DNA of 64,000 nucleotides, taken from NCBI GenBank assembly GCA_019638285.1, contig JAHBUB010000014.1, positions 1 to 64,000 of the forward strand, read 5' to 3'. Shown here one piece after another: positions 1-33,442 of the stretch (the stretch's first letter is position 1; each line of letters starts with the position of its first letter). The stretch comes from Cyclobacteriaceae bacterium. GTDB lineage: Bacteria; Bacteroidota; Bacteroidia; Cytophagales; Cyclobacteriaceae. The notes under the pieces are model-generated. The model had not been told where the DNA came from. It ran no database searches and saw only the letters and a program-made list of their open reading frames with translations. The position numbers were made by a program, and so were the translations under genes.

Positions 1-3000
1 TTGGGTTAGTTGGGTTTTGTGTCTACCGCTTTCTAAAAGAACCGCTCTCTTGGTGGATCTATCATAAAGGTTTGGGGCAAGAAGAAAGCGCACAAATGAT
101 TGGTTCACACTTCCCTGCCATTAAAGATCGGTTGCTCAACGTAATTCAACTTTCGGCCATTAAGCACGAGAGCGCATTGCTGGATGCCGGCATCCTTCAA
201 AAGTCTAGACAATTTGAAAACATAACTTTTGAAAGTGCCATTGATCTAAGCGCCAACAAAAAGTACTTGAAATACTTTTTGTTTCCGTTTGGCATTATGC
301 TCATTCTACTCTTTGTCAATAATGGAATTTTCACACAAAGCACGCAACGTATTGTTCAGTTCAATAGAGAGTTTTCCCCGCAGGCACCTTTCACTTTTGT
401 AGTGCAAAACCAAAGCCTGAATGCTTTTATCAATGAAGACTTTACATTAAATCTTCATCTCGAAGGCCAGGCTCTGCCAAAAGCAGTTTATATCCAGTCG
501 GGTAGTCAGCGGTTTAAAATGGAGATGCTTTCAAACTCCTCTTACACTTACACTTTTGAAAAACTTCAAAACGAAATTCCTTTTCAATTTGAGGCTTCCG
601 GTTTCTACTCCGATGCACACACAATTCATTTGATCAATCGGCCAGAGCTTACTCAATTGAAAGTAACACTTACCTATCCCCGCTATCTTTCAAAACAAAG
701 GGAGGTCTTGTTGAATACAGGGAACCTGGAAATTCCTGAGGGCACAAATGTAAACTGGCAAATAGGAGCCGCCAATACAGTTAAAGCCATAATCGGTTTC
801 AATTCTTCAAATGAAGAAAATCCAATGCAACTATCTGATGATCAACAGTTTAATTACAATAAAAATTTCAATCATTCTGAAGGATATTGGATCGCACTAG
901 AAAATGATCATTCAAAAAATAAAGATCAGATCTCCTATTCAATAAATGTGATCAAAGATCAACCCCCTCAAATAGTCGTAGACCATCTTCGCGATTCTAT
1001 CCTTTATAAAACTATTTTACTCGGAGGCAGCATCTCTGATGATTATGGAATAAGCGCCCTCACATTGAATTATCAAAAAGTGACAAAGGATGCTACCGGA
1101 CCCAATAAAACTATTTCAATCCCAGTTCACAAAAATCAATTAAAGCAAAGCTTCTTTCATCAATGGGTGCTAGACTCACTTCAATTACAACCCGGAGAAC
1201 GCATAAATTATTTTCTAGAAGTCTGGGACAATGACGGAGTGAATGGTCACAAGTCAACCCGATCTTCTTCTTATGTTTTCGCTCTCCCCAGTAAAGAAGA
1301 AATGAAAGCAGACATCAGCAAGTCACAGGAAAACACGAAAGACAAAATTGATGAAAGCTTGAAAAAAGCGAAAGACCTGAAAGAATCTATTGATGAGGCC
1401 CAGCAAAAACTAAGAGGGAAAAAAGTGATGGAGTGGCAAGATCAAAAAATGCTGGAAGATCTTATTAAACAAAAAGAAAGTTTAGACCAGTTGATTGATG
1501 AGCTCAAAAAGCAAAACAATATGCTGAATGAAAAGAAAGAGGGGCTTTCAGAAATGGACCAAAAGATGAGGGAGAAATCTGAACAGCTGCAAAAGTTGAT
1601 GAATGAGCTGCTCGATGAAGAAACCAAAAAGCTTTTTGAGGAGCTTGAAAAATTAATGCGAGAGAATTCTGACATCTCAGAAATTCAAAAACAGTTGAAT
1701 AAGATGGATCGGAAAGAGATCAATCTTGAAAAAGAACTGGAGCGTACCCTCGAATTATTTAAACAGCTTCAGTTTGACTACAAGTTGGATCAGGCCATTC
1801 AGGAAATAAAAACTCAAACTAAAAAGCAGGAAGCGCTGCTGGAAAAAACAAAAGAGGCCGCTGGCGAAAAGACGAGCGACAAAGGAGACAAGTCGAAAGA
1901 GGGGAATCAATCGGATAGTAAGGAGAACAAAGATTCAAAACCAGGAGATAAAACCGAAAATGATAAATCAGCCGATACTAGTAAAGACAACAAAAATTTA
2001 GCTGGAGAACAGGAGGCATTATCGAAAGAATTTGAGCAATTCGAAAAAACACTAAAAGAGCTGAACAAGATTGGGGAGGAGATAAAAAAACAAGCCAACA
2101 CTCCTTCTGAAGAGGAAGTGGAGGATGTAAAGAATTCGCAACAGCAAAGTAAAGAATCACTAGAACAGGGAGAGCCCAAGAAGGCTACAGAAGAGCAAAA
2201 GAAATCGGCTGAGAAGATGAAGCAAATGCAACAGCAACTGGAGGGAATGCAAAACACCATGGAAATGGAGATTAACATGCAAAACCTGGAATCCTTGAGA
2301 CAGGTACTCCATGGGCTGATCAAATTATCATACGATCAGGAATCACTCATGAAGTCTTTTGCTCAAATTCAGCAGACGGATCCTAAGTATGTGCAATTGA
2401 GTCAACAGCAATTAAAGATCAAGGATGACTTTAAAGTACTGGAAGACAGCCTATTAGCTCTCGCAAAACGAGATCCATTCATGGGTTCAATAGTTACTAG
2501 AGAAGTGGGAGATCTAAATGATCACGTAGATAAGGCGGTTGAAAACATTCGCGAAAGAAGAAAGGGGAATGCCGGATCCGAAATGCAGCTATCCATGACC
2601 AGCATTAATAATCTGGCGCTCATGCTCAACGATCATTTTGACATGATGATGGATATGATGGCCAATGCCATGCCTTCGAAGGGAAAGGGGAAAGCAAAGG
2701 GAAAAGAAAGCCTTGGCGAACTTCAACAACAGTTGAATGAACAAATCGAGCAACTGAAAAACAGTGGTAAATCTGGTAGGCAGCTATCCGAAGAATTGGC
2801 AAAAATGGCGGCAGAACAGGAAAGAATCAGAAGGGCCCTTCAGGAAATGCAGGAGAAACTAGAACAACAGGGGGGCAAGGCTCCCGGGGGCGATATTCCT
2901 GGTAAAATGGAGCAAACTGAAATGGATCTTGTCAACAAGCGCCTGACAGAGCAAACCATAAGAAGACAAAGAGATATACTCACCAGACTATTGGAAACAG

Positions 3001-3209
3001 AGAAATCCATGCGAGAGCAAAACATGGATGAGGAACGCAAGGCAGAAACAGCCAAAGACTATCAGAATCAGATTCCTAAAGCATTCGAAGAATATTTAAG
3101 ATTAAAGGAAAAAGAGGTAGAATTGTTGAAAACTGTACCCCCCAAATTGTACCCCTATTACAAAAAAGAGGTGAGTGACTATTTTAAGCGCATCGAAAAC
3201 TTTCAATAA
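1..3209 (+). CDS. DUF4175 family large membrane protein (5' end outside window)
   Basis: The reading frame is open from base 3, so the gene begins before the window; 1068 residues are visible. The TTG at 72 is not the start, because the residues before it (LVGFCVYRFLKEP) continue the protein in the same frame. A hydrophobic segment (YFLFPFGIMLILLFV) lies about 90 residues in. Beta-rich, Ig-like sequence follows, and from about base 1290 to the end the protein is a very long, Lys/Glu/Gln-rich coiled coil with low-complexity stretches. This architecture is that of the DUF4175 proteins of Bacteroidota, whose biochemical role is unknown. A membrane-anchored periplasmic coiled coil is the most that can be said. 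It is the first gene of the run leading to ybeY and mnmG, 45 bp before the next start. Confidence 0.85.
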   Translation, partial: GLVGFCVYRFLKEPLSWWIYHKGLGQEESAQMIGSHFPAIKDRLLNVIQLSAIKHESALLDAGILQKSRQFENITFESAIDLSANKKYLKYFLFPFGIMLILLFVNNGIFTQSTQRIVQFNREFSPQAPFTFVVQNQSLNAFINEDFTLNLHLEGQALPKAVYIQSGSQRFKMEMLSNSSYTYTFEKLQNEIPFQFEASGFYSDAHTIHLINRPELTQLKVTLTYPRYLSKQREVLLNTGNLEIPEGTNVNWQIGAANTVKAIIGFNSSNEENPMQLSDDQQFNYNKNFNHSEGYWIALENDHSKNKDQISYSINVIKDQPPQIVVDHLRDSILYKTILLGGSISDDYGISALTLNYQKVTKDATGPNKTISIPVHKNQLKQSFFHQWVLDSLQLQPGERINYFLEVWDNDGVNGHKSTRSSSYVFALPSKEEMKADISKSQENTKDKIDESLKKAKDLKESIDEAQQKLRGKKVMEWQDQKMLEDLIKQKESLDQLIDELKKQNNMLNEKKEGLSEMDQKMREKSEQLQKLMNELLDEETKKLFEELEKLMRENSDISEIQKQLNKMDRKEINLEKELERTLELFKQLQFDYKLDQAIQEIKTQTKKQEALLEKTKEAAGEKTSDKGDKSKEGNQSDSKENKDSKPGDKTENDKSADTSKDNKNLAGEQEALSKEFEQFEKTLKELNKIGEEIKKQANTPSEEEVEDVKNSQQQSKESLEQGEPKKATEEQKKSAEKMKQMQQQLEGMQNTMEMEINMQNLESLRQVLHGLIKLSYDQESLMKSFAQIQQTDPKYVQLSQQQLKIKDDFKVLEDSLLALAKRDPFMGSIVTREVGDLNDHVDKAVENIRERRKGNAGSEMQLSMTSINNLALMLNDHFDMMMDMMANAMPSKGKGKAKGKESLGELQQQLNEQIEQLKNSGKSGRQLSEELAKMAAEQERIRRALQEMQEKLEQQGGKAPGGDIPGKMEQTEMDLVNKRLTEQTIRRQRDILTRLLETEKSMREQNMDEERKAETAKDYQNQIPKAFEEYLRLKEKEVELLKTVPPKLYPYYKKEVSDYFKRIENFQ

Positions 3210-3254
3210 CCGTATTTATAAGTAAAGGAGCATTTAAACTGGATAATAGCTGAT

Positions 3255-3659
3255 ATGAATAACTTTCGCGTTGAAATCCCCTCCCTTTCCGAAAATATAA
3301 GGATGATTGAAAGCTTTATTGACAACGCAAAAGAAAAATTCCATCTCAATGATGATATCTACGGTAATATTATGATTGCTGTAACAGAAGCTGTCAATAA
3401 CGCAATCAAACATGGCAATAAAGGCGATTCTACCCGAAATGTAGACCTCACCCTTTCTCTGGAAGATGGCTTGATCAAGTTTAGAATCGAGGATGAAGGG
3501 CGCGGCTTTGACTATCAAAACCTACCAGATCCTACAGCTCCAGAAAATGTTGAAAAGCCGGGTGGCAGGGGTATCTTTCTAATGAAACATCTCTCTGATG
3601 AGGTTAATTTCTTAGAGAACGGCAAAGTGGTAGAGCTTAGTTTTTATATCAATAATTAA
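3255..3659 (+). CDS. RsbW-like ATP-binding protein (HATPase_c_2, anti-sigma-factor type)
   Basis: This is a compact 134-residue GHKL ATPase domain with no sensor or dimerisation domain. The N-box is at residues 45-55 (EAVNNAIKHGN), the G1 box at 80-85 (DEGRGF) and the glycine-rich G2 lid at 103-110 (GGRGIFLM). This is the layout of the RsbW/SpoIIAB serine kinases that bind and inhibit sigma factors or phosphorylate STAS antagonists. No sigma factor, STAS protein or PP2C phosphatase is encoded nearby, so its partner is unknown. Its stop codon overlaps the ybeY start (TAATG), so the two are probably translationally coupled. The family is secure; the specific target is not. Confidence 0.88.
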   Translation: MNNFRVEIPSLSENIRMIESFIDNAKEKFHLNDDIYGNIMIAVTEAVNNAIKHGNKGDSTRNVDLTLSLEDGLIKFRIEDEGRGFDYQNLPDPTAPENVEKPGGRGIFLMKHLSDEVNFLENGKVVELSFYINN

Positions 3660-22856: not shown

Positions 22857-25256
22857 ATGAATCGAAACATTAAAAAAGTTGCCGTACTGGGATCAGGAGT
22901 GATGGGGTCTGCCATCGCATGTCATTTTGCCAATATTGGTTGTGCTGTTTTATTACTGGATATCGCCCCTCGGGAATTGAGTGAGGAGGAGAAGTCAAAG
23001 GGACTTTCGTTGGATGATATGCGCGTGAAGAATCGCATTGTACAATCCTCATTTGATCGCAGCATCAAATCTAGTCCGGGGCCGCTTTTTAGCAAAAAAT
23101 TTGCCTCACGTATTTCCTTGGGCAACTTTACTGATGACATGCCTAAGATCAAAGACTACGACTGGATCATTGAGGTGGTGGTAGAGAATCTGGATATTAA
23201 AAAGAAAGTGTATACTGAAGTAGAGAAATATAGAACGCCAGGTACCTTAGTTACTTCCAATACATCGGGGATTCCCATTCACTTGATGGCAGAAGACAGA
23301 AGTGAAAATTTTAAAAAGAATTTCTGTGGCACACACTTTTTTAATCCACCGCGTTACTTAAAATTATTTGAGGTAATTCCTACGCCCTTTACCGATCCGG
23401 AAGTGACTCAATTTTTACTTCACTATGGTGATTTGTATTTGGGTAAAACAACCGTGCTTTGTAAAGACACACCCGCATTTATTGGAAATAGGGTAGGCGT
23501 ATGGGGATTACTCAAAGTGATCGACTCAATGCAGAAGTTTGGATTGAATGTAGATGAGATTGATAAACTTACCGGACCGGTAATAGGAAGACCCAAATCG
23601 GCTACATTCAGAACATCTGACTTAGTAGGATTGGATACTTTGGTGAAAGTGGCCAACAACCTGTATGCAGGATTGCCGGATGATGAAGGGCGGGATATGT
23701 TTAAACTGCCTGAAGTGGTGGCAAAACTGGAAGAGAAAAAATGGTTGGGAGATAAAACAGGACAAGGCTTTTATAAAAAGAGTAAGGATGCTAAAGGTAA
23801 AACGGAAATTCTTACCCTAGATCTCAACACATTAGAGTACAAACAAAAAACAAAGCCAAAGTTTGCCACACTAGAGACTACCAAGACGATCGATAACCTA
23901 AAAGACCGCTTCAAAGTGTTGTTGGCGGGCAAAGACAAAGCGGGTGACTTTTACCGGGATGCATTTTATGGGTTGTTTCAATATGCCAGCAATCGCATTC
24001 CGGAAATCAGCGATGAATTATTCAGAATTGATGATGCCGTATGCGCAGGCTTTGGATGGGAGCTTGGTCCGTTCCAAACCTGGGACGCAGTGGGCGTAGA
24101 GAAATCGCTCAAAGTAATGGAAGAGGGCGGATACAAACCTGCCCAATGGGTGTATGACATGGTAAGCGCTGGCAATACTTCTTTTTATAAAGTAGAGAAG
24201 GGTCAGAATACGTATTATGATATTCCCTCCAAATCGTATAAACAAATTCCAGGAGCGCAAGACTTCATTATTCTTGAAAACCTCAGCGATAAAATTATCT
24301 GGAAGAATGCAGATTCTAAAATCACTGATATTGGTGATGGAGTTATTAATTTCTCGTGGCATAGCAAGAGCTACACACTCGGTAGTGCTGTTGTTGAGGG
24401 GATGAATTATGCAATCGGTCTAGCGGAAAGAGACCATCGCGGCCTGGTGATTGGCCACCAGGGGGCTGATTTTTCGTTAGGTGCCAATTTGGGACTGGTG
24501 TTTATGTATGCCATTGAGCAAGACTATGATGAGCTGGACTTTATGGTGCGTGCTTTCCAAAACACGGTGATGCGGATTAGGTATTCATCTGTTCCTGTTG
24601 CGGTAGCACCACATGGAAGAACCTTGGGTGGAGGCTGTGAGATGACCATGCATGCGGATATTGCACAAGCTGCCGCTGAAACTTATATAGGGCTGGTAGA
24701 GGTTGGTGTTGGTCTGATTCCAGGGGGAGGAGGAACGAAAGAATTTACCAAACGCGTGAGTGACTTACTACAAGAAGGAGATGTGGAGTTGAATGCACTT
24801 CAAAACGCATTTATGAATATTGCTACCGCAAAAGTGGCATTATCGGCTGAGGAAGCACGTGAGATGGGAGTGTTGCGATCGATCGATCGTATCAGCATGA
24901 ACAAAGACAGGCAAATCGCAGATGCTAAAGCGGCAGTATTGGAATTAGCAGATGCGGGTTATACAATGCCAGTGAAGGCGACCAACATTAAAGTTCAGGG
25001 AAAAACTGGAATGGCATTATTTGCAGCAGGAGTATATGGTATGAAAATGGGCCACTATATTTCTGATCACGACATGAAGATTGCAATGAAGATTGCTAAC
25101 GTAATGTGCGGTGGTGAGTTGAGTTATCCTCAGGAAGTAAGCGAACAATATTTGTTGGATCTGGAGCGCGAAGCTTTTGTGTCGTTGTGTGGAGAGAAGA
25201 AAACGCTGGAGCGGATTCAGAGTATTTTGACTGGAGGAAAACCCTTGAGAAATTAG
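22857..25256 (+). CDS. 3-hydroxyacyl-CoA dehydrogenase/enoyl-CoA hydratase fusion (FadJ/FadB-like)
   Basis: The fused enzyme carries out the hydration and NAD-dependent dehydrogenation steps of beta-oxidation. The dehydrogenase comes first: NAD motif GSGVMGSA at residues 12-19 and GTHFFNPPRYLKLFE with the catalytic His. A crotonase domain at about residues 490-720 follows, with the paired glutamates at Glu595 (GGGCEMTMHAD) and Glu615 (IGLVEVGVG) and an oxyanion-forming GANLGLV segment. This domain order is the reverse of E. coli FadB but common in Bacteroidota. The 799-residue length is normal. It is followed by an inverted-repeat unit that separates it from the thiolase gene. Confidence 0.95.
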   Translation: MNRNIKKVAVLGSGVMGSAIACHFANIGCAVLLLDIAPRELSEEEKSKGLSLDDMRVKNRIVQSSFDRSIKSSPGPLFSKKFASRISLGNFTDDMPKIKDYDWIIEVVVENLDIKKKVYTEVEKYRTPGTLVTSNTSGIPIHLMAEDRSENFKKNFCGTHFFNPPRYLKLFEVIPTPFTDPEVTQFLLHYGDLYLGKTTVLCKDTPAFIGNRVGVWGLLKVIDSMQKFGLNVDEIDKLTGPVIGRPKSATFRTSDLVGLDTLVKVANNLYAGLPDDEGRDMFKLPEVVAKLEEKKWLGDKTGQGFYKKSKDAKGKTEILTLDLNTLEYKQKTKPKFATLETTKTIDNLKDRFKVLLAGKDKAGDFYRDAFYGLFQYASNRIPEISDELFRIDDAVCAGFGWELGPFQTWDAVGVEKSLKVMEEGGYKPAQWVYDMVSAGNTSFYKVEKGQNTYYDIPSKSYKQIPGAQDFIILENLSDKIIWKNADSKITDIGDGVINFSWHSKSYTLGSAVVEGMNYAIGLAERDHRGLVIGHQGADFSLGANLGLVFMYAIEQDYDELDFMVRAFQNTVMRIRYSSVPVAVAPHGRTLGGGCEMTMHADIAQAAAETYIGLVEVGVGLIPGGGGTKEFTKRVSDLLQEGDVELNALQNAFMNIATAKVALSAEEAREMGVLRSIDRISMNKDRQIADAKAAVLELADAGYTMPVKATNIKVQGKTGMALFAAGVYGMKMGHYISDHDMKIAMKIANVMCGGELSYPQEVSEQYLLDLEREAFVSLCGEKKTLERIQSILTGGKPLRN

Positions 25257-25279
25257 TATTGAGTATTTAGTCCTTAGTC
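25253..25279 (+). repeat. Left arm of 27-bp inverted repeat around the four-helix-bundle gene
   Basis: This arm begins at the last codons of the FadJ-like gene and supplies its TAG stop. Its reverse complement matches 25649-25675 at 25 of 27 positions. It contains TAGTATTGAGT, which also occurs at 26870-26880. Confidence 0.8.
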
Positions 25280-25298
25280 TTGAGTTAATGGATTTGAT

Positions 25299-25661
25299 AT
25301 GAATAATTATAAAAGCTTAAAGTTATGGCAGAAGTCTGTCGACTTGGCTGTGGAGATTTATAAAGTTACGAGTTCTTTTCCAAAGGAAGAGATGTATGGC
25401 TTGACTTCTCAAATTAAGAGAAGCGCGGTCTCAATTCCTTCAAATATTGCTGAGGGAGCGGGAAGAAACACAAAAAAGGATTTTAATAATTTTCTAGGTA
25501 TTTCTATTGGCTCATCTAGTGAGTTAGATACTCAATTAATAATTGCAAGTAGAATTGGATTCATTAATGAATCTTTATTGCAGACTTTGCAGAAACAAAT
25601 AGAGGAAATTCAAAAAATGAACTGGGCACTTAAACGCTCACTCAAATTGACTAATGACTAA
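25299..25661 (+). CDS. Four-helix-bundle protein (23S rRNA intervening-sequence/S23 family)
   Basis: The 120-residue protein carries the family signature SIPSNIAEGAGR at residues 45-56, preceded by LWQKSVDLAVEIYK and followed by helical sequence. These proteins are best known from intervening sequences inside 23S rRNA genes of some bacteria, where the insert is bounded by complementary arms. They also occur free in many Bacteroidota genomes; their function is unknown. Here the gene sits between two steps of the beta-oxidation pathway. It is flanked by 27-bp inverted repeats, one of which overlaps its own stop codon. It is almost certainly an inserted unit rather than part of the pathway. Confidence 0.85.
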   Translation: MNNYKSLKLWQKSVDLAVEIYKVTSSFPKEEMYGLTSQIKRSAVSIPSNIAEGAGRNTKKDFNNFLGISIGSSSELDTQLIIASRIGFINESLLQTLQKQIEEIQKMNWALKRSLKLTND

Positions 25662-25675
25662 ATACTCAAGACTAA
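25649..25675 (-). repeat. Right arm of 27-bp inverted repeat around the four-helix-bundle gene
   Basis: It is complementary to 25253-25279 at 25 of 27 positions and overlaps the last four codons plus stop of the four-helix-bundle gene. It contains ACTAATGACTAA, repeated exactly at 26931-26942. Confidence 0.8.
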
Positions 25676-25692
25676 TTACTAAAGACTAAAAT

Positions 25693-26868
25693 ATGGACGC
25701 TTATATAGTAGCAGGATACAGAACAGCAGTAGGGAAAGCTAAGAAGGGCGGCTTCCGCTTCACACGGCCCGATGATTTGGCTTCCGATGTGATTAAGCAT
25801 TTGGTGAAGTCTGTTCCAGGATTGGAAAATAAAATGGTCGATGACCTTTTCGTTGGAAATGCGGTGCCGGAAGCGGAGCAAGGCATGCAAATGGGAAGGA
25901 TGATTTCGTTGCTGTCGTTGGGTATTGAGATACCGGGGATGATAGTGAACCGATATTGCGGCTCGGGAATTGAAACAATTGCCATAGCCAGTCAACGTAT
26001 TCATGCCGGACAGGCAGATGTAATCATTGCAGGAGGAACAGAGTCGATGTCCTTGGTTCCAGTAATGGGATTCAAAACAGCATTGAACTACAAGATTGCT
26101 AAGGATCACCCGACCTACTATACCAGCATGGGTCTCACAGCAGAGGAGATATCCAAACAGTTTAATATTTCGCGAGAGGCACAAGATCAGTTTTCTTATG
26201 AATCGCACATGAAAGCAGAAGCAGCATGGCAAGCCGGAAAGTTTAAGGACGAGGTGGTGCCTATTACTGTGAAAGAAACTTATGTGGATGAAAACATGAA
26301 GAAGAAAACCCGTGAATACGTGGTGGAAAAGGATGAGGGCATTCGTCCAGAGACCACGCCTGAGGGATTAGCAAAACTGAAACCGGTATTTGCTGTAGGA
26401 GGAAGTGTAACAGCAGGAAATTCTTCTCAAACCTCTGATGGGGCTGCTTTTGTGGTGGTGATGTCAGAGAGGATGGTGAAGCAATTGAATCTTAAACCTA
26501 TCGCCAGGCTGGTAAGCTATGCCACAGCAGGAGTGGATCCGCGGATCATGGGAATAGGTCCGGTGGCCGCTGTTCCGAAAGCATTAAAGATTGCGGGAAT
26601 GAAACTAGATGACATGGATTTGATTGAATTGAATGAAGCCTTTGCCGCACAGTCATTAGCAGTAGTTCATGAACTAGGAATCGACCGTAGTAAATTGAAT
26701 GTAAATGGAGGCGCCATAGCAGTAGGGCATCCGCTCGGGTCCACAGGGGCCAGGTTGTCGATTCAATTATTTAATGAAATGCGCAGGCAGAAAAAGAAAT
26801 ATGGTATGGTGACAGCTTGTGTGGGCGGAGGACAGGGAGTGGCGGGAGTTTATGAGTTTTTAAATTAA
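25693..26868 (+). CDS. Acetyl-CoA C-acyltransferase (thiolase)
   Basis: The 391-residue thiolase catalyses the last, CoA-dependent cleavage step of beta-oxidation. The nucleophilic Cys is Cys89 (NRYCGSG), His346 lies in GHPLGSTGAR, and the second active-site Cys376 in TACVGGG. IELNEAFAAQ is also intact, so all catalytic elements are present. It is separated from the FadJ-like gene only by the four-helix-bundle unit, so the ancestral order was probably FadJ-thiolase-dehydrogenase. Confidence 0.95.
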   Translation: MDAYIVAGYRTAVGKAKKGGFRFTRPDDLASDVIKHLVKSVPGLENKMVDDLFVGNAVPEAEQGMQMGRMISLLSLGIEIPGMIVNRYCGSGIETIAIASQRIHAGQADVIIAGGTESMSLVPVMGFKTALNYKIAKDHPTYYTSMGLTAEEISKQFNISREAQDQFSYESHMKAEAAWQAGKFKDEVVPITVKETYVDENMKKKTREYVVEKDEGIRPETTPEGLAKLKPVFAVGGSVTAGNSSQTSDGAAFVVVMSERMVKQLNLKPIARLVSYATAGVDPRIMGIGPVAAVPKALKIAGMKLDDMDLIELNEAFAAQSLAVVHELGIDRSKLNVNGGAIAVGHPLGSTGARLSIQLFNEMRRQKKKYGMVTACVGGGQGVAGVYEFLN

Positions 26869-26869
26869 G

Positions 26870-26951
26870 TAGTATTGAGTCGTGAGTCTTTCGTCCTGAG
26901 ACTCAAAGCAGAACAAACTAAGGACTATTTACTAATGACTAATTAACTAAA
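26870..26951. repeat. Gene-less relative of the inverted-repeat unit
   Basis: The 85-bp gap between thiolase and acyl-CoA dehydrogenase starts with the same 11-mer (TAGTATTGAGT, 26870-26880) as the left arm at 25254. Near its end it carries the same 12-mer (ACTAATGACTAA, 26931-26942) as the right arm at 25650. The two halves are imperfectly complementary to each other, and no gene lies between them. A shorter sequence with similar words lies before the FadJ-like gene (about 22820-22850). Confidence 0.6.
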
Positions 26952-26953
26952 AC

Positions 26954-28756
26954 ATGAACACAGCAGAAGAAACAAAAGCAATAAAAGGAGGCGAGTTCTT
27001 AATCAGGGAAACGCCAGCTAATGAAATTTTTATTCCTGAAGAGTGGACAGAAGAGCAACTCATGATTGGTAAAACCTGTGATGATTTTTTGGAGCAGGAA
27101 GTGTACCCAAAATTAGATGCGATTGATGACATTAAAAACAACCCGAAGCTCATGCCGGAGATTTTGGACAAAGCAGGAGAACTGGGATTGTTGGGAACAT
27201 CAGTACCCCAAGAGTATGGAGGGTTTGGAATGGACTTTAACACTACCATGCTAGTGGCAGAAAAAATTGGGGCAGGACATTCCGTGGCCGTAGCACTTTC
27301 TGCACATACGGGAATAGGAACGTTACCCATACTCTATTATGGAAATGAAGAACAAAAGAAAAAATACTTGCCCAAATTAGCCACGGGTGAGTGGAAGGCT
27401 GCCTACTGTCTGACAGAACCGGATTCCGGATCGGATGCTAACTCAGGGAAAACCAAGGCGGTATTGACAAGTGATAAAAAACATTACTTGATCAACGGGC
27501 AGAAAATGTGGATCACCAATGGTGGCTTTGCGCATGTATATATTGTGTTTGCAAAAATTGATGATGATAAGAACCTGAGCGCCTTTATCGTAGAGAAATC
27601 ATTCGGGGGTATTACCATGAACGAAGAGGAGCGTAAGATGGGAATCAAGGGGTCCTCCACTCGTCAGATCTTTTTCAATGATTGCAAAGTGCCTGTTGAG
27701 AACTTGCTGAGTGAGCGAGAAAATGGATTTAAAATTGCAGTAAACATTCTGAATATTGGAAGGATTAAGCTAGGCGTTGCTGCAGTAGGTGGATCCAAGA
27801 TGGCAATTTCAAAGGCCGTGAATTATTCTAAAGAGCGCAAGCAATTCGGAACGACCATATCCAACTTTGGAGCGATCAAACACAAAATTGCGGAAGTGGT
27901 TACACACATATTTGCATCAGAATCTGCACATTATCGTGCAGGGCAAAACATTGATGATTCTTATGCTGCGATGGTGGCTGGGGGTATGGATGCCGCTAAA
28001 GCAAAATTGAAATCAACAGAGGAGTTTGCTATTGAATGTGCCATTCTCAAAGTACACGGATCTGAAGTACTGGATTTTTCTGTAGATGAGGGCGTGCAGA
28101 TTTATGGAGGAATGGGATTTTCTGCCGAAGGCCCTATGGACAGGGCTTATCGCGATGCACGCATAAACAGAATATTTGAAGGAACGAATGAGATCAACCG
28201 TATGCTTACGATTGATATGCTGTTGAAGCGTGCTATGAAAGGCCACATTGACCTGATGACACCTGTGATGGCAGTGCAAAAGGAATTGGTTTCTATTCCC
28301 GATTTTAGTGCGGCAGAAGAGGAGGGGCTTTTCGCGAAAGAAAAGAAAGCCTTGATGAATTTAAAGAAAGCAGGACTGATGGTAGCAGGAGCAGCTGTTC
28401 AGAAGTACGTGCAAAAGCTTTCTGATGAGCAGGAGATATTGATGAACCTGGCAGACATGTTGATCGAAGGCTATGTAGCGGAGTCAACCCTGCTGCGTGT
28501 GGAAAAATTGATTGGCATGAGAGGAGAGGCCGCATGTGAAATCCAGAAGGAGATGGCAGTCATTTATTTACACCATGCCATTGAGAAGGCTGCCTCAGCC
28601 GGTAGGCAGGCTATTTATGCTTTCGCAGAAGGAGATGAGCAAAAGCTGATGTTGTTGGGCTTGAAAAGATTTTCCAAAGTGGACCCCTACAACTTAAAAA
28701 ATGCCAGAAGAAAAGTAGCAGATTATGTGATTGAAAAGGGAGCTTATCCATTTTAG
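26954..28756 (+). CDS. Acyl-CoA dehydrogenase, long (VLCAD-like) form
   Basis: This FAD enzyme catalyses the first oxidation of beta-oxidation. YCLTEPDSGSDANSGKT marks the FAD/substrate region, and the catalytic base is probably Glu409 in RIFEGTNEINR, the position typical of this family. At 600 residues it is longer than short-chain dehydrogenases. The C-terminal helical extension (about 430-600) resembles that of the very-long-chain enzymes, which suggests longer substrates. Electron-transfer flavoprotein genes are not in the window. A strong terminator follows 27 bp after the stop, closing the operon. Confidence 0.95.
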   Translation: MNTAEETKAIKGGEFLIRETPANEIFIPEEWTEEQLMIGKTCDDFLEQEVYPKLDAIDDIKNNPKLMPEILDKAGELGLLGTSVPQEYGGFGMDFNTTMLVAEKIGAGHSVAVALSAHTGIGTLPILYYGNEEQKKKYLPKLATGEWKAAYCLTEPDSGSDANSGKTKAVLTSDKKHYLINGQKMWITNGGFAHVYIVFAKIDDDKNLSAFIVEKSFGGITMNEEERKMGIKGSSTRQIFFNDCKVPVENLLSERENGFKIAVNILNIGRIKLGVAAVGGSKMAISKAVNYSKERKQFGTTISNFGAIKHKIAEVVTHIFASESAHYRAGQNIDDSYAAMVAGGMDAAKAKLKSTEEFAIECAILKVHGSEVLDFSVDEGVQIYGGMGFSAEGPMDRAYRDARINRIFEGTNEINRMLTIDMLLKRAMKGHIDLMTPVMAVQKELVSIPDFSAAEEEGLFAKEKKALMNLKKAGLMVAGAAVQKYVQKLSDEQEILMNLADMLIEGYVAESTLLRVEKLIGMRGEAACEIQKEMAVIYLHHAIEKAASAGRQAIYAFAEGDEQKLMLLGLKRFSKVDPYNLKNARRKVADYVIEKGAYPF

Positions 28757-32652: not shown

Positions 32653-33395
32653 GCATGGAGGCCGCCATATCTGTTTCGGATTTGACCAAACGCTTTGGAG
32701 ACTTCACTGCTGTGGATGGTATCACCTTTGATGTAAAGAAAGGGGAAATCTTTGGTTTTTTAGGAGCCAATGGAGCAGGAAAAACGACTGCTATGCGCAT
32801 GTTATGTGGTCTTTCACTTCCCACCAGTGGCCAAGCGAATGTAGCGGGGTTTGATCTTTACAAAGAGCCAGAAAAAATCAAGAAAAATATTGGATACATG
32901 AGCCAAAAATTTTCTCTCTATGGAGACCTCACCATCAGAGAAAACAACAGATTTTATGGAGGGATTTACGGATTGACGGATCAACAGATTAAAGAGAAAA
33001 CGCAATTTATGCTGGAGCATCTTCACCTGGAGGACCAGGCAGATACTTTGGTTAGGGCATTGCCACTGGGGTGGAAACAAAAGCTTTCGTTTTCGGTGTC
33101 TATGATACATGACCCAAAAATTGTGTTTTTGGATGAGCCTACCGGTGGTGTTGATCCTATAACACGCAGGGAATTTTGGTCAATGATATATGAAGCAGCG
33201 CACAGTGGCACCACCGTTTTTGTAACCACTCACTATATGGACGAGGCAGAGTACTGCGACCGGGTGTCTATTATGGTAGACGGTAAAATTGAAGCGATGG
33301 ATAGCCCATCCGCATTATCAAAACAATACAATGCAAAAGGAATGGAAGAAGTATTTGTGCAATTGGCAAGGAAAGCCATACGATCAGACAATTAG
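32649..33395 (+). CDS. ABC transporter ATP-binding protein 2, degenerate signature motif
   Basis: The start is the ATG at 32649, overlapping the upstream stop as ATGA (248 residues). A TTG at 32625 is less plausible. Walker A is intact (GANGAGKTT), as is Walker B (IVFLDEPTGGVD), but the signature motif reads LPLGWKQKLSF instead of LSGGQ. This asymmetry is also known for the second half of YbhF-like pairs. It implies that one composite ATP site of the heterodimer is non-canonical. Confidence 0.92.
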   Translation: MSMEAAISVSDLTKRFGDFTAVDGITFDVKKGEIFGFLGANGAGKTTAMRMLCGLSLPTSGQANVAGFDLYKEPEKIKKNIGYMSQKFSLYGDLTIRENNRFYGGIYGLTDQQIKEKTQFMLEHLHLEDQADTLVRALPLGWKQKLSFSVSMIHDPKIVFLDEPTGGVDPITRREFWSMIYEAAHSGTTVFVTTHYMDEAEYCDRVSIMVDGKIEAMDSPSALSKQYNAKGMEEVFVQLARKAIRSDN

Positions 33396-33399
33396 TTAT

Positions 33400-33442
33400 C
33401 TGTTAATGGTTGTTAGTTAATAGCTAAGACAACCGATAACAG
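33400..33442. repeat. Imperfect inverted repeat between ATPase and permease genes
   Basis: CTGTTAATGGTTGTTAG (33400-33416) pairs imperfectly with 33424-33442 over a short loop. It lies inside the operon, directly after the second ATPase stop and 21 bp before the first permease start. It may stabilise or attenuate the transcript; no T-run follows, so it is not a clear terminator. Confidence 0.45.

Follow-up and report, generated by a model that had tools for sequence, protein, structure and literature searches.

The window analysed here, meaning the whole stretch of 64,000 nucleotides (nt) taken from contig JAHBUB010000014.1 of the Cyclobacteriaceae bacterium assembly GCA_019638285.1 (positions 1 to 64,000, forward strand), contains a beta-oxidation operon in which a small insert lies between a FadJ-like gene and a thiolase gene, and not in a 23S rRNA gene. 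The insert carries a single gene, coding for a four-helix-bundle protein of family PF05635, enclosed by two inverted tandem arrays of a 7-nt unit (Table 1). We regard it as probable, on balance, that this is a small mobile element made of one gene and two heptad arrays that are recognised by its ring-forming protein. A MarR-type gene flanks the operon upstream and a TetR-type gene downstream.

An earlier note on this DNA had described the small gene as bounded by 27-bp inverted repeats, matching at 25 of 27 positions and meeting the stop codons of the FadJ-like and the small gene. The match is confirmed, since the left arm and the reverse complement of the right one are identical at 25 of 27 positions, against a maximum of 18 in 60 first-order Markov simulations of both flanks, and a repeat search of the window extends it to 36 nt (25244-25279 with 25649-25684, 89%), the left side reaching into the end of the FadJ-like gene. 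Both stop codons also lie as described: the TAG of the FadJ-like gene (25254-25256) is within the left arm, and the small gene, whose final residues are encoded by the right array, has its stop within the right arm. What does not hold is the notion of a fixed repeat, as both arms are variable arrays of imperfect TNAGTNN heptads, inverted about the gene. The left array reads ATTAGTA, TTGAGTA, TTTAGTC, CTTAGTC, TTGAGTT, and the right array, as reverse complement, TTTAGTC, TTTAGTA, ATTAGTC, TTGAGTA, TTTAGTC, ATTAGTC. When identity between letters 7 nt apart (lag 7) is scored along the window, these two arrays rank at the top (0.75), and four other stretches exceed the threshold, all at 0.64. Rfam gives no match within 24500-27500 up to an E-value of 1. 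At 33395-33429 a weak lag-7 stretch (0.64), GTTATCTGTTAATGGTTGTTAGTTAATAGCTAAGA, is possibly a decayed array.

Table 1. Features of the operon segment that holds the insert (window coordinates; ORF, open reading frame).
Feature	Position	Strand	Basis
FadJ-like 3-hydroxyacyl-CoA dehydrogenase / enoyl-CoA hydratase gene	22857..25256	+	ORF; Pfam 3HCDH_N, 3HCDH, ECH_1
Left heptad array, five TNAGTNN units; encloses 27-nt arm 25253-25279	25252..25286	+	lag-7, arm match
PF05635 / TIGR02436 four-helix-bundle gene (23S_rRNA_IVP, S23p), 120 amino acids	25299..25661	+	ORF, profiles, predicted structure
Right heptad array, six TNAGTNN units; encloses 27-nt arm 25649-25675	25649..25690	-	repeat search, lag-7
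Thiolase gene, start 2 nt past the element	25693..26868	+	ORF; Thiolase_N, Thiolase_C
Thiolase / acyl-CoA dehydrogenase spacer with gene-less, more degenerate TNAGTNN-type array pair	26869..26953	.	word sharing
Gene-less array pair of the spacer	left ~26870-26902, right ~26918-26950		by eye
Acyl-CoA dehydrogenase gene	26954..28756	+	ORF; Pfam acyl-CoA dehydrogenase domains

Concerning the protein, its 120 residues score 140.5 bits against PF05635 (23S_rRNA_IVP; cut-off 33.8) and 134.3 bits against TIGR02436 (four helix bundle protein; cut-off 24). The predicted structure has four helices, with a mean predicted local distance difference test score (pLDDT) of 94.7, and its closest folds are 2gsc (template modelling score, TM-score, 0.82-0.86) and 2rld (0.78-0.85), both with five chains in the crystal entry, followed by the Avd protein of diversity-generating retroelements (DGRs; chains of 4dwl and 8ub7, TM-score ~0.76-0.80). 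A relative from X. campestris is reported as a homopentameric toroid (PMC4990558). The ratio of nonsynonymous to synonymous rates (dN/dS) is 0.03-0.22 among the close pairs listed that have unsaturated dS, and in these measured pairs the protein is maintained by purifying selection. PADLOC yields no match, which leaves an anti-phage reading unsupported. At one relative (L010, genome G008) the C-terminal tail of the protein is the translated right heptad array, so arrays can become coding sequence.

Heptad arrays around PF05635 genes

The window element was compared with two collections of relatives. Set A, drawn from the retrieved part of the listed PF05635 matches in this genome and its order (which holds at least 127), comprises those 121 of 127 unique elements whose flanks could be used. 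Set B takes the best 80 of 539 relatives in a scan of genome contigs, 79 of them with enough flank, and its record titles name cyanobacteria, acidobacteria, planctomycetes, desulfobacteria, Chloroflexi-type bacteria, Nitrospirae, Bacteroidetes and anaerobic methanotrophic (ANME)-type archaea, among others.

In set A the lag-7 identity is 0.380 to the left and 0.353 to the right of the gene, compared with 0.255 in the gene interior and 0.239 at 490-600 nt upstream, and the signal of the flanks is echoed at 14 and 21. The two arms of the same element, compared in inverted orientation, match with a median of 19 against 10 for crossed pairs, and exceed the crossed-pair 99th percentile in 53 of 121 elements, a number that drops to 5 of 121 in direct orientation. 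The window genome itself has six PF05635 copies, each with its own short repeated word on both sides when judged by eye. Set B behaves alike, with lag-7 identities of 0.398 (left) and 0.366 (right) vs 0.249 in the gene over the 79 loci, and a median inverted own-arm match of 20 vs 9 for crossed pairs; just 19 of 79 loci pass the 99th percentile, because many of them have one unit type in common. Separate models of the left and the reverse-complemented right arrays of set B agree on NNTNAG(C/T), with G at position 6 in 95% and 92%, respectively. The unit model of the window group is weaker than this one, and the consensus unit is roughly NNTNAGN, read inwards at 7-nt spacing. From the end of the left array to the start codon the median gap is 11 nt in set A and 15 in set B.

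Some loci of this comparison show peculiarities of their own. Low arm scores (8-9) make L172, L178, L206 and L220 candidate copies with lost arrays. The left flank of the cyanobacterial locus L147 (1370-1495), and similarly those of L150, L153 and L166, apparently contains a complete gene-less hairpin, and all four appear to have a long second array ahead of the start codon. In one genome of the window's order with 15 PF05635 matches (G026) the heptads are of the form GCANTNG, with 323 pattern matches and 0 for the control.

The family is also found on plasmids, where 30 records of a plasmid collection match the protein, Nostoc (9), Calothrix (4) and Riemerella (4) being the largest groups. 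All four regions inspected (Nostoc, Pseudanabaena, Trichormus and Azospirillum) show heptads on both sides of the gene. The Azospirillum copy, L149, lies inside a 23S rRNA gene, as Rfam LSU_rRNA_bacteria spans 292-3354 of the locus, and its heptad arms flank the gene on both sides within the rRNA; these 23S flanks have no match in any other collected locus. This copy agrees with the earlier note, in which the family was said to occur in 23S inserts bounded by complementary arms. Taken together, its presence in rRNA and that of other copies in operon junctions indicate a wider element that tolerates transcribed places, as was also suggested there.

The next comparison concerns the relation between unit and protein. 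Unit similarity was assessed in the elements that exceed the array threshold on both sides, 91 in set A and 61 in set B, which for these tests numbers 83 elements and includes four plasmid loci. The two units of one element, left and right, are more alike than crossed ones, with 0.629 vs 0.423 in set A and 0.680 vs 0.463 in set B, values that are only 0.394 and 0.463 in direct orientation, and the composition-corrected excess is positive in 85 of 91 and 58 of 61 elements, respectively. Unit similarity follows protein identity as well, with composition-corrected Mantel r values of 0.346 (A), 0.469 (B) and 0.455 for cross-phylum pairs, and 0 of 1000 permutations as high in each test; in the cross-phylum pairs the excess is 0.185 at protein identities of at least 60% vs 0.033 at 40-50%. 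Elements with similar proteins have a unit similarity of 0.517 at different sites (70 pairs) and 0.549 at the same site (108), while dissimilar proteins give 0.420 both at the same site (39 pairs) and at different sites (3315), in a comparison where pairs are non-independent and 'different site' includes the two adjoining junctions of this operon. The unit sequence goes with the protein type and not with the insertion site, and its covariation with the protein holds across phyla.

Operon junctions in relatives and signs of mobility

Among 21 genomes of the same genus, the FadJ-thiolase junction carries the gene in 11 and the thiolase-dehydrogenase junction in 9, with both occupied in 4 and either one in 16. 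Four genomes (G014, G016, G022 and G023) have plain short spacers at both junctions with no recognisable arrays, which sets aside the possibility that all relatives carry the gene at this place without recognisable arms, and G012 has remnants only. Ten genomes that carry the gene at one junction have, at the neighbouring one, a gene-less array pair, or in G017 a single array. These gene-less arrays share words with the element of the same genome (permutation over the ten genomes, p 0.00005), and for six representatives the pairing of each with its own element ranks 1 of 720.

The proteins at one and the same junction fall into groups that are only 25-36% identical in the pairs listed and have different units. 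Two independent origins of the FadJ-thiolase inserts were rejected as a reading of the tree, which needs 9 label changes over 121 rows but has 41 of 118 forks open, and the starred branches obtained with this short protein do not by themselves force more than one origin; the low identity between groups is the stronger argument for separate origins. Two copies of the FadJ-thiolase junction gene (G024:C1:2549399-2549698 and G013:C111:9515-9781) have an in-frame TAA, which suggests decay of the gene in place.

Arrays are also found where the gene is absent. Three TNAGTNN units occur 27 times in the window genome vs 6 times for a control read backwards, and the unit stands in at least six places away from PF05635 matches, which rules out the other outcome that would have spoken against the earlier note, namely an arm sequence found nowhere else. 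Such gene-less arrays were inspected at six places in this genome and fourteen in three others, and, judged by eye, roughly half of these twenty have two arms, whereas the others have one or are unclear.

The clearest indications of movement come from desulfobacterial relatives, in which six loci have ORFs that are 87.8-96.5% identical, three of the desulfobacterial loci (L200, L209 and L211) falling under one assembly prefix. No match between their right flanks is found by blastn, and a comparison of four left flanks shows 31 bp common to one pair. After the heptads, the right end TTCTCCAACTAAATTGGAGAAGAACC or a near variant is found by regular expression in 7 of 9 loci, and the left end is related to it by eye. 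From these sequences the desulfobacterial elements look mobile. Right of the gene, beyond the heptads, L184, L198, L203, L209, L211, L217, L222 and, by eye, L200 carry an additional conserved hairpin at the terminus, with a sharp outer boundary. The wider mobile element proposed earlier thus gains from the 23S copy and the operon junctions, but mobility is best seen in these relatives and not in the window genome.

Mutual exclusion of copies within a genome is not claimed, as the 2 pairs at 50% identity vs 7.6 expected are read against an expectation that vertical inheritance inflates; within-genome unit similarity is not below that between genomes (p 0.56). As to a possible resemblance of the target site, the last 15 nt of the upstream gene match the arrays above permutation in set A (9.43 vs 8.82, p 0.0002), and in set B the right arms give 8.70 vs 8.58 (p 0.17) and the left spacer p 0.015, a resemblance that arises in part because some arrays extend into the upstream reading frame.

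Candidate explanations

In the mobile-element reading that we favour, each end of the element would consist of typically three to six tandem 7-nt units, NNTNAGN read inwards. Most likely, the ring-shaped four-helix-bundle protein would recognise the arrays of its own element, with about one unit per subunit, and this recognition would mark or pair the element ends, on the DNA or on its transcript. Hairpins that have the unit of the element but no gene would be its non-autonomous kin. Placement would favour co-transcription with a host operon at sites where additional or cleaved RNA is of little consequence, namely behind a stop codon with genes of the same direction on either side, or within a 23S rRNA gene. 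With a simple ORF caller, the PF05635 gene has the same direction as both neighbours in 99 elements and the opposite one to both in 7 (set A, n=121), the corresponding numbers in set B being 61 and 6 (n=83). Direct protein-array binding, the stoichiometry between ring and array, and a role in mobility are what we infer; a ring with one unit per subunit would be the simplest picture. As a more tentative extension, for which we see some room though less than an even chance, PF05635 proteins might in general be pentameric ring readers, each with its lineage-specific 7-nt unit read by one subunit apiece, which together with their mirrored arrays would form an unrecognised class of mobile elements in bacteria and archaea, uniting the 23S, cyanobacterial, Beggiatoaceae, Geobacter and operon forms, some with the gene and some without it. 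If true, the way in which units vary with proteins would be a recognition code that arose in nature and can evolve.

The arms could instead serve as an RNA processing hairpin, a long stem that RNase III cuts, freeing the RNA of the small gene and splitting the operon mRNAs, with the protein being incidental. This would suit the co-direction with the operon, the fold of the element RNA (-120.6 kcal/mol, z -5.73, 0 of 100 shuffles as good, arms paired) and the intervening sequence (IVS) of Coxiella 23S rRNA, reported to be excised by RNase III by authors who rate the RNA above S23p (PMC4990558). The evidence on the self-folding suggested earlier is mixed, as it is favoured by the fold of the whole element, but not by the gene-less hairpin (26869-26953), which folds no better than shuffles (z -0.84), nor by the mismatches between arms, in which G-U-compatible and A-C-type ones are about equal (229 vs 222 in 87 elements, 132 vs 147 in 68), so that selection on sense-RNA pairing was rejected. 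The order of units between the arms is weakly in register, with 11 of 88 elements below p 0.05 and 36 of 88 below 0.2. Given the lack of G-U bias, the weak register and a gene-less hairpin of no special stability, the unit as such appears to count for more than flawless pairing, in keeping with a protein that reads it; since, in addition, purifying selection acts on the protein in the measured pairs and the protein type predicts the unit, we consider the processing hairpin unlikely.

TRAP is a ring-shaped RNA-binding protein that binds NAG-type triplets at fixed spacing, and a similar autoregulation can be conceived, in which the ring protein would attach to the NAG units of the 5' array, both in its own mRNA and in those of its neighbours, and control their translation, the units being operators and the gene a resident regulator. 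The short distance from array to start codon, the NAG core of NNTNAGN repeated every 7 nt and the gene-less arrays of the same unit at other intergenic sites are all in line with it. However, the 3' array, which appears in the mRNA as the complementary strand, is kept as well as the 5' one; in addition, occupancy of the junctions differs between close relatives, and the desulfobacterial copies have discrete ends at unrelated sites, which makes such a regulator improbable. Passive simple repeats, where the gene would settle in heptad arrays arising from polymerase slippage and template switching, are already disfavoured and in our estimate have very little chance. Heptamers are over-represented among bacterial simple repeats (PMC4692102, PMC4679880) and gene-less or one-armed arrays are common among the inspected loci, but slippage explains neither the covariation of unit and protein across sites and phyla nor the common NNTNAGN core and the inversion around the gene.

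It should be noted that several results weigh against the mobile element with self-recognised arrays. The window group has no recent copies, with 0 of 257 within-genome pairs at 70% identity or more (maximum 0.62), and the element encodes no nuclease, integrase or reverse transcriptase. Two of the six copies of the window genome score 13 and 14.5, where the crossed-pair 95th percentile is 14, and arrays reach the threshold on both sides in no more than 91 of the 121 elements of set A and 61 of the 83 of set B. Strict counts of units per arm have medians of 4, 4, 4 and 5 and spread from 3 up to 15, and a fixed five per arm, matching a pentamer, is not claimed (looser counting gives a mode of five in set B). 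One pair, L128 and L136, has 79% identical proteins at different sites and a low unit similarity of 0.40. In G010, G011, G013, G014 and others the control read backwards is as frequent as the unit or more so, and array counts therefore need careful reading; G009, G017, G020 and G023 are rich in the TNAGT unit and have no TNAGT-armed gene. The association between a TNAGT-armed gene and gene-less TNAGT arrays reaches p 0.076, from rough counts in which overlapping flanks are counted twice, leaving one genome at -1. The missing G-U asymmetry belongs here as well.

Comparison with known systems

Repetitive extragenic palindromic sequences with their RAYT transposases (REP/RAYT) and miniature inverted-repeat transposable elements (MITEs) likewise combine short palindromic gene-less copies in intergenic sites with one coding relative. 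In the window, however, PF05635 is the sole gene, neither a Y1 (HuH) transposase as in REP/RAYT nor a DDE transposase, and the arms are variable arrays and not a fixed palindrome. The protein has a fold like that of Avd from DGRs, but it stays below the Avd cut-offs (DivGenRetAVD 26.2 vs 80, bAvd 26.8 vs 40), and no reverse transcriptase lies beside the gene, its neighbours being beta-oxidation genes; no search for template or variable repeats was made. A reverse transcriptase as partner was rejected, as just 13 of 39 genomes have PF00078 and several that are rich in PF05635 lack it (among them G001, G005, G011 and G018), and the single match of the window genome is on another contig (C79); a reverse transcriptase is not required for keeping the element.

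The arrays, being tandem 7-nt units in an intergenic place, qualify as heptanucleotide repeats of the short tandemly repeated repetitive (STRR) type. In the P6b region of Nostoc trnL, Class II repeats (NNTGAGT) fit NNTNAGN, whereas the reported Class I (TDNGATT) departs from the NAG core (PMC4476775). TAACTGA repeats are described as common to Beggiatoaceae, cyanobacteria and five Bacteroidetes with 'no mechanism evident' (PMC4679880), and a text search of that paper gave no mention of 'S23', 'intervening' or 'four helix'; these cyanobacterial, Beggiatoaceae and P6b reports concern repeats without a PF05635 gene. Of 16 Geobacter hairpins, 15 are reported to be made of five tandem MTYCTGA units, the reverse complement of TCAGRAK (PMC2700814); they are gene-less and were proposed as regulator sites, and PF05635 was not searched for in that genome. 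The Xanthomonas GGGAATC and Nostoc GGGGAYT repeats (PMC4692102) lack the NAG core.

The single pieces have thus been published already, and the joining of PF05635 with heptad arrays is new as far as searched, as we found no paper that makes it in general among the matches listed, most subscription papers and bioRxiv preprints being outside the scope. No function is known behind the names of the family ('S23 ribosomal protein', 'four helix bundle protein'), and descriptions of heptanucleotide repeats in bacteria are piecemeal and offer no mechanism. Their covariation merges both puzzles into a single question, whether the protein binds the repeat, and the two may be halves of one mobile element. 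Binding would mean a sequence-recognition system with many natural specificities, would explain tolerated inserts in rRNA and operons, and would provide a cause for repeats that are used in strain typing.

The nearest counterparts are the intervening sequences with an S23p ORF in the 23S rRNA of Coxiella, Leptospira and others, which are of similar size (about 430-440 nt) and likewise loop a PF05635 ORF between complementary arms, that of Coxiella having three tandem heptamers GACAGAT reported ahead of the ORF (PMC4990558). The window element differs from them in lying between protein-coding genes, in having heptads in both arms and in a unit that varies with the protein.

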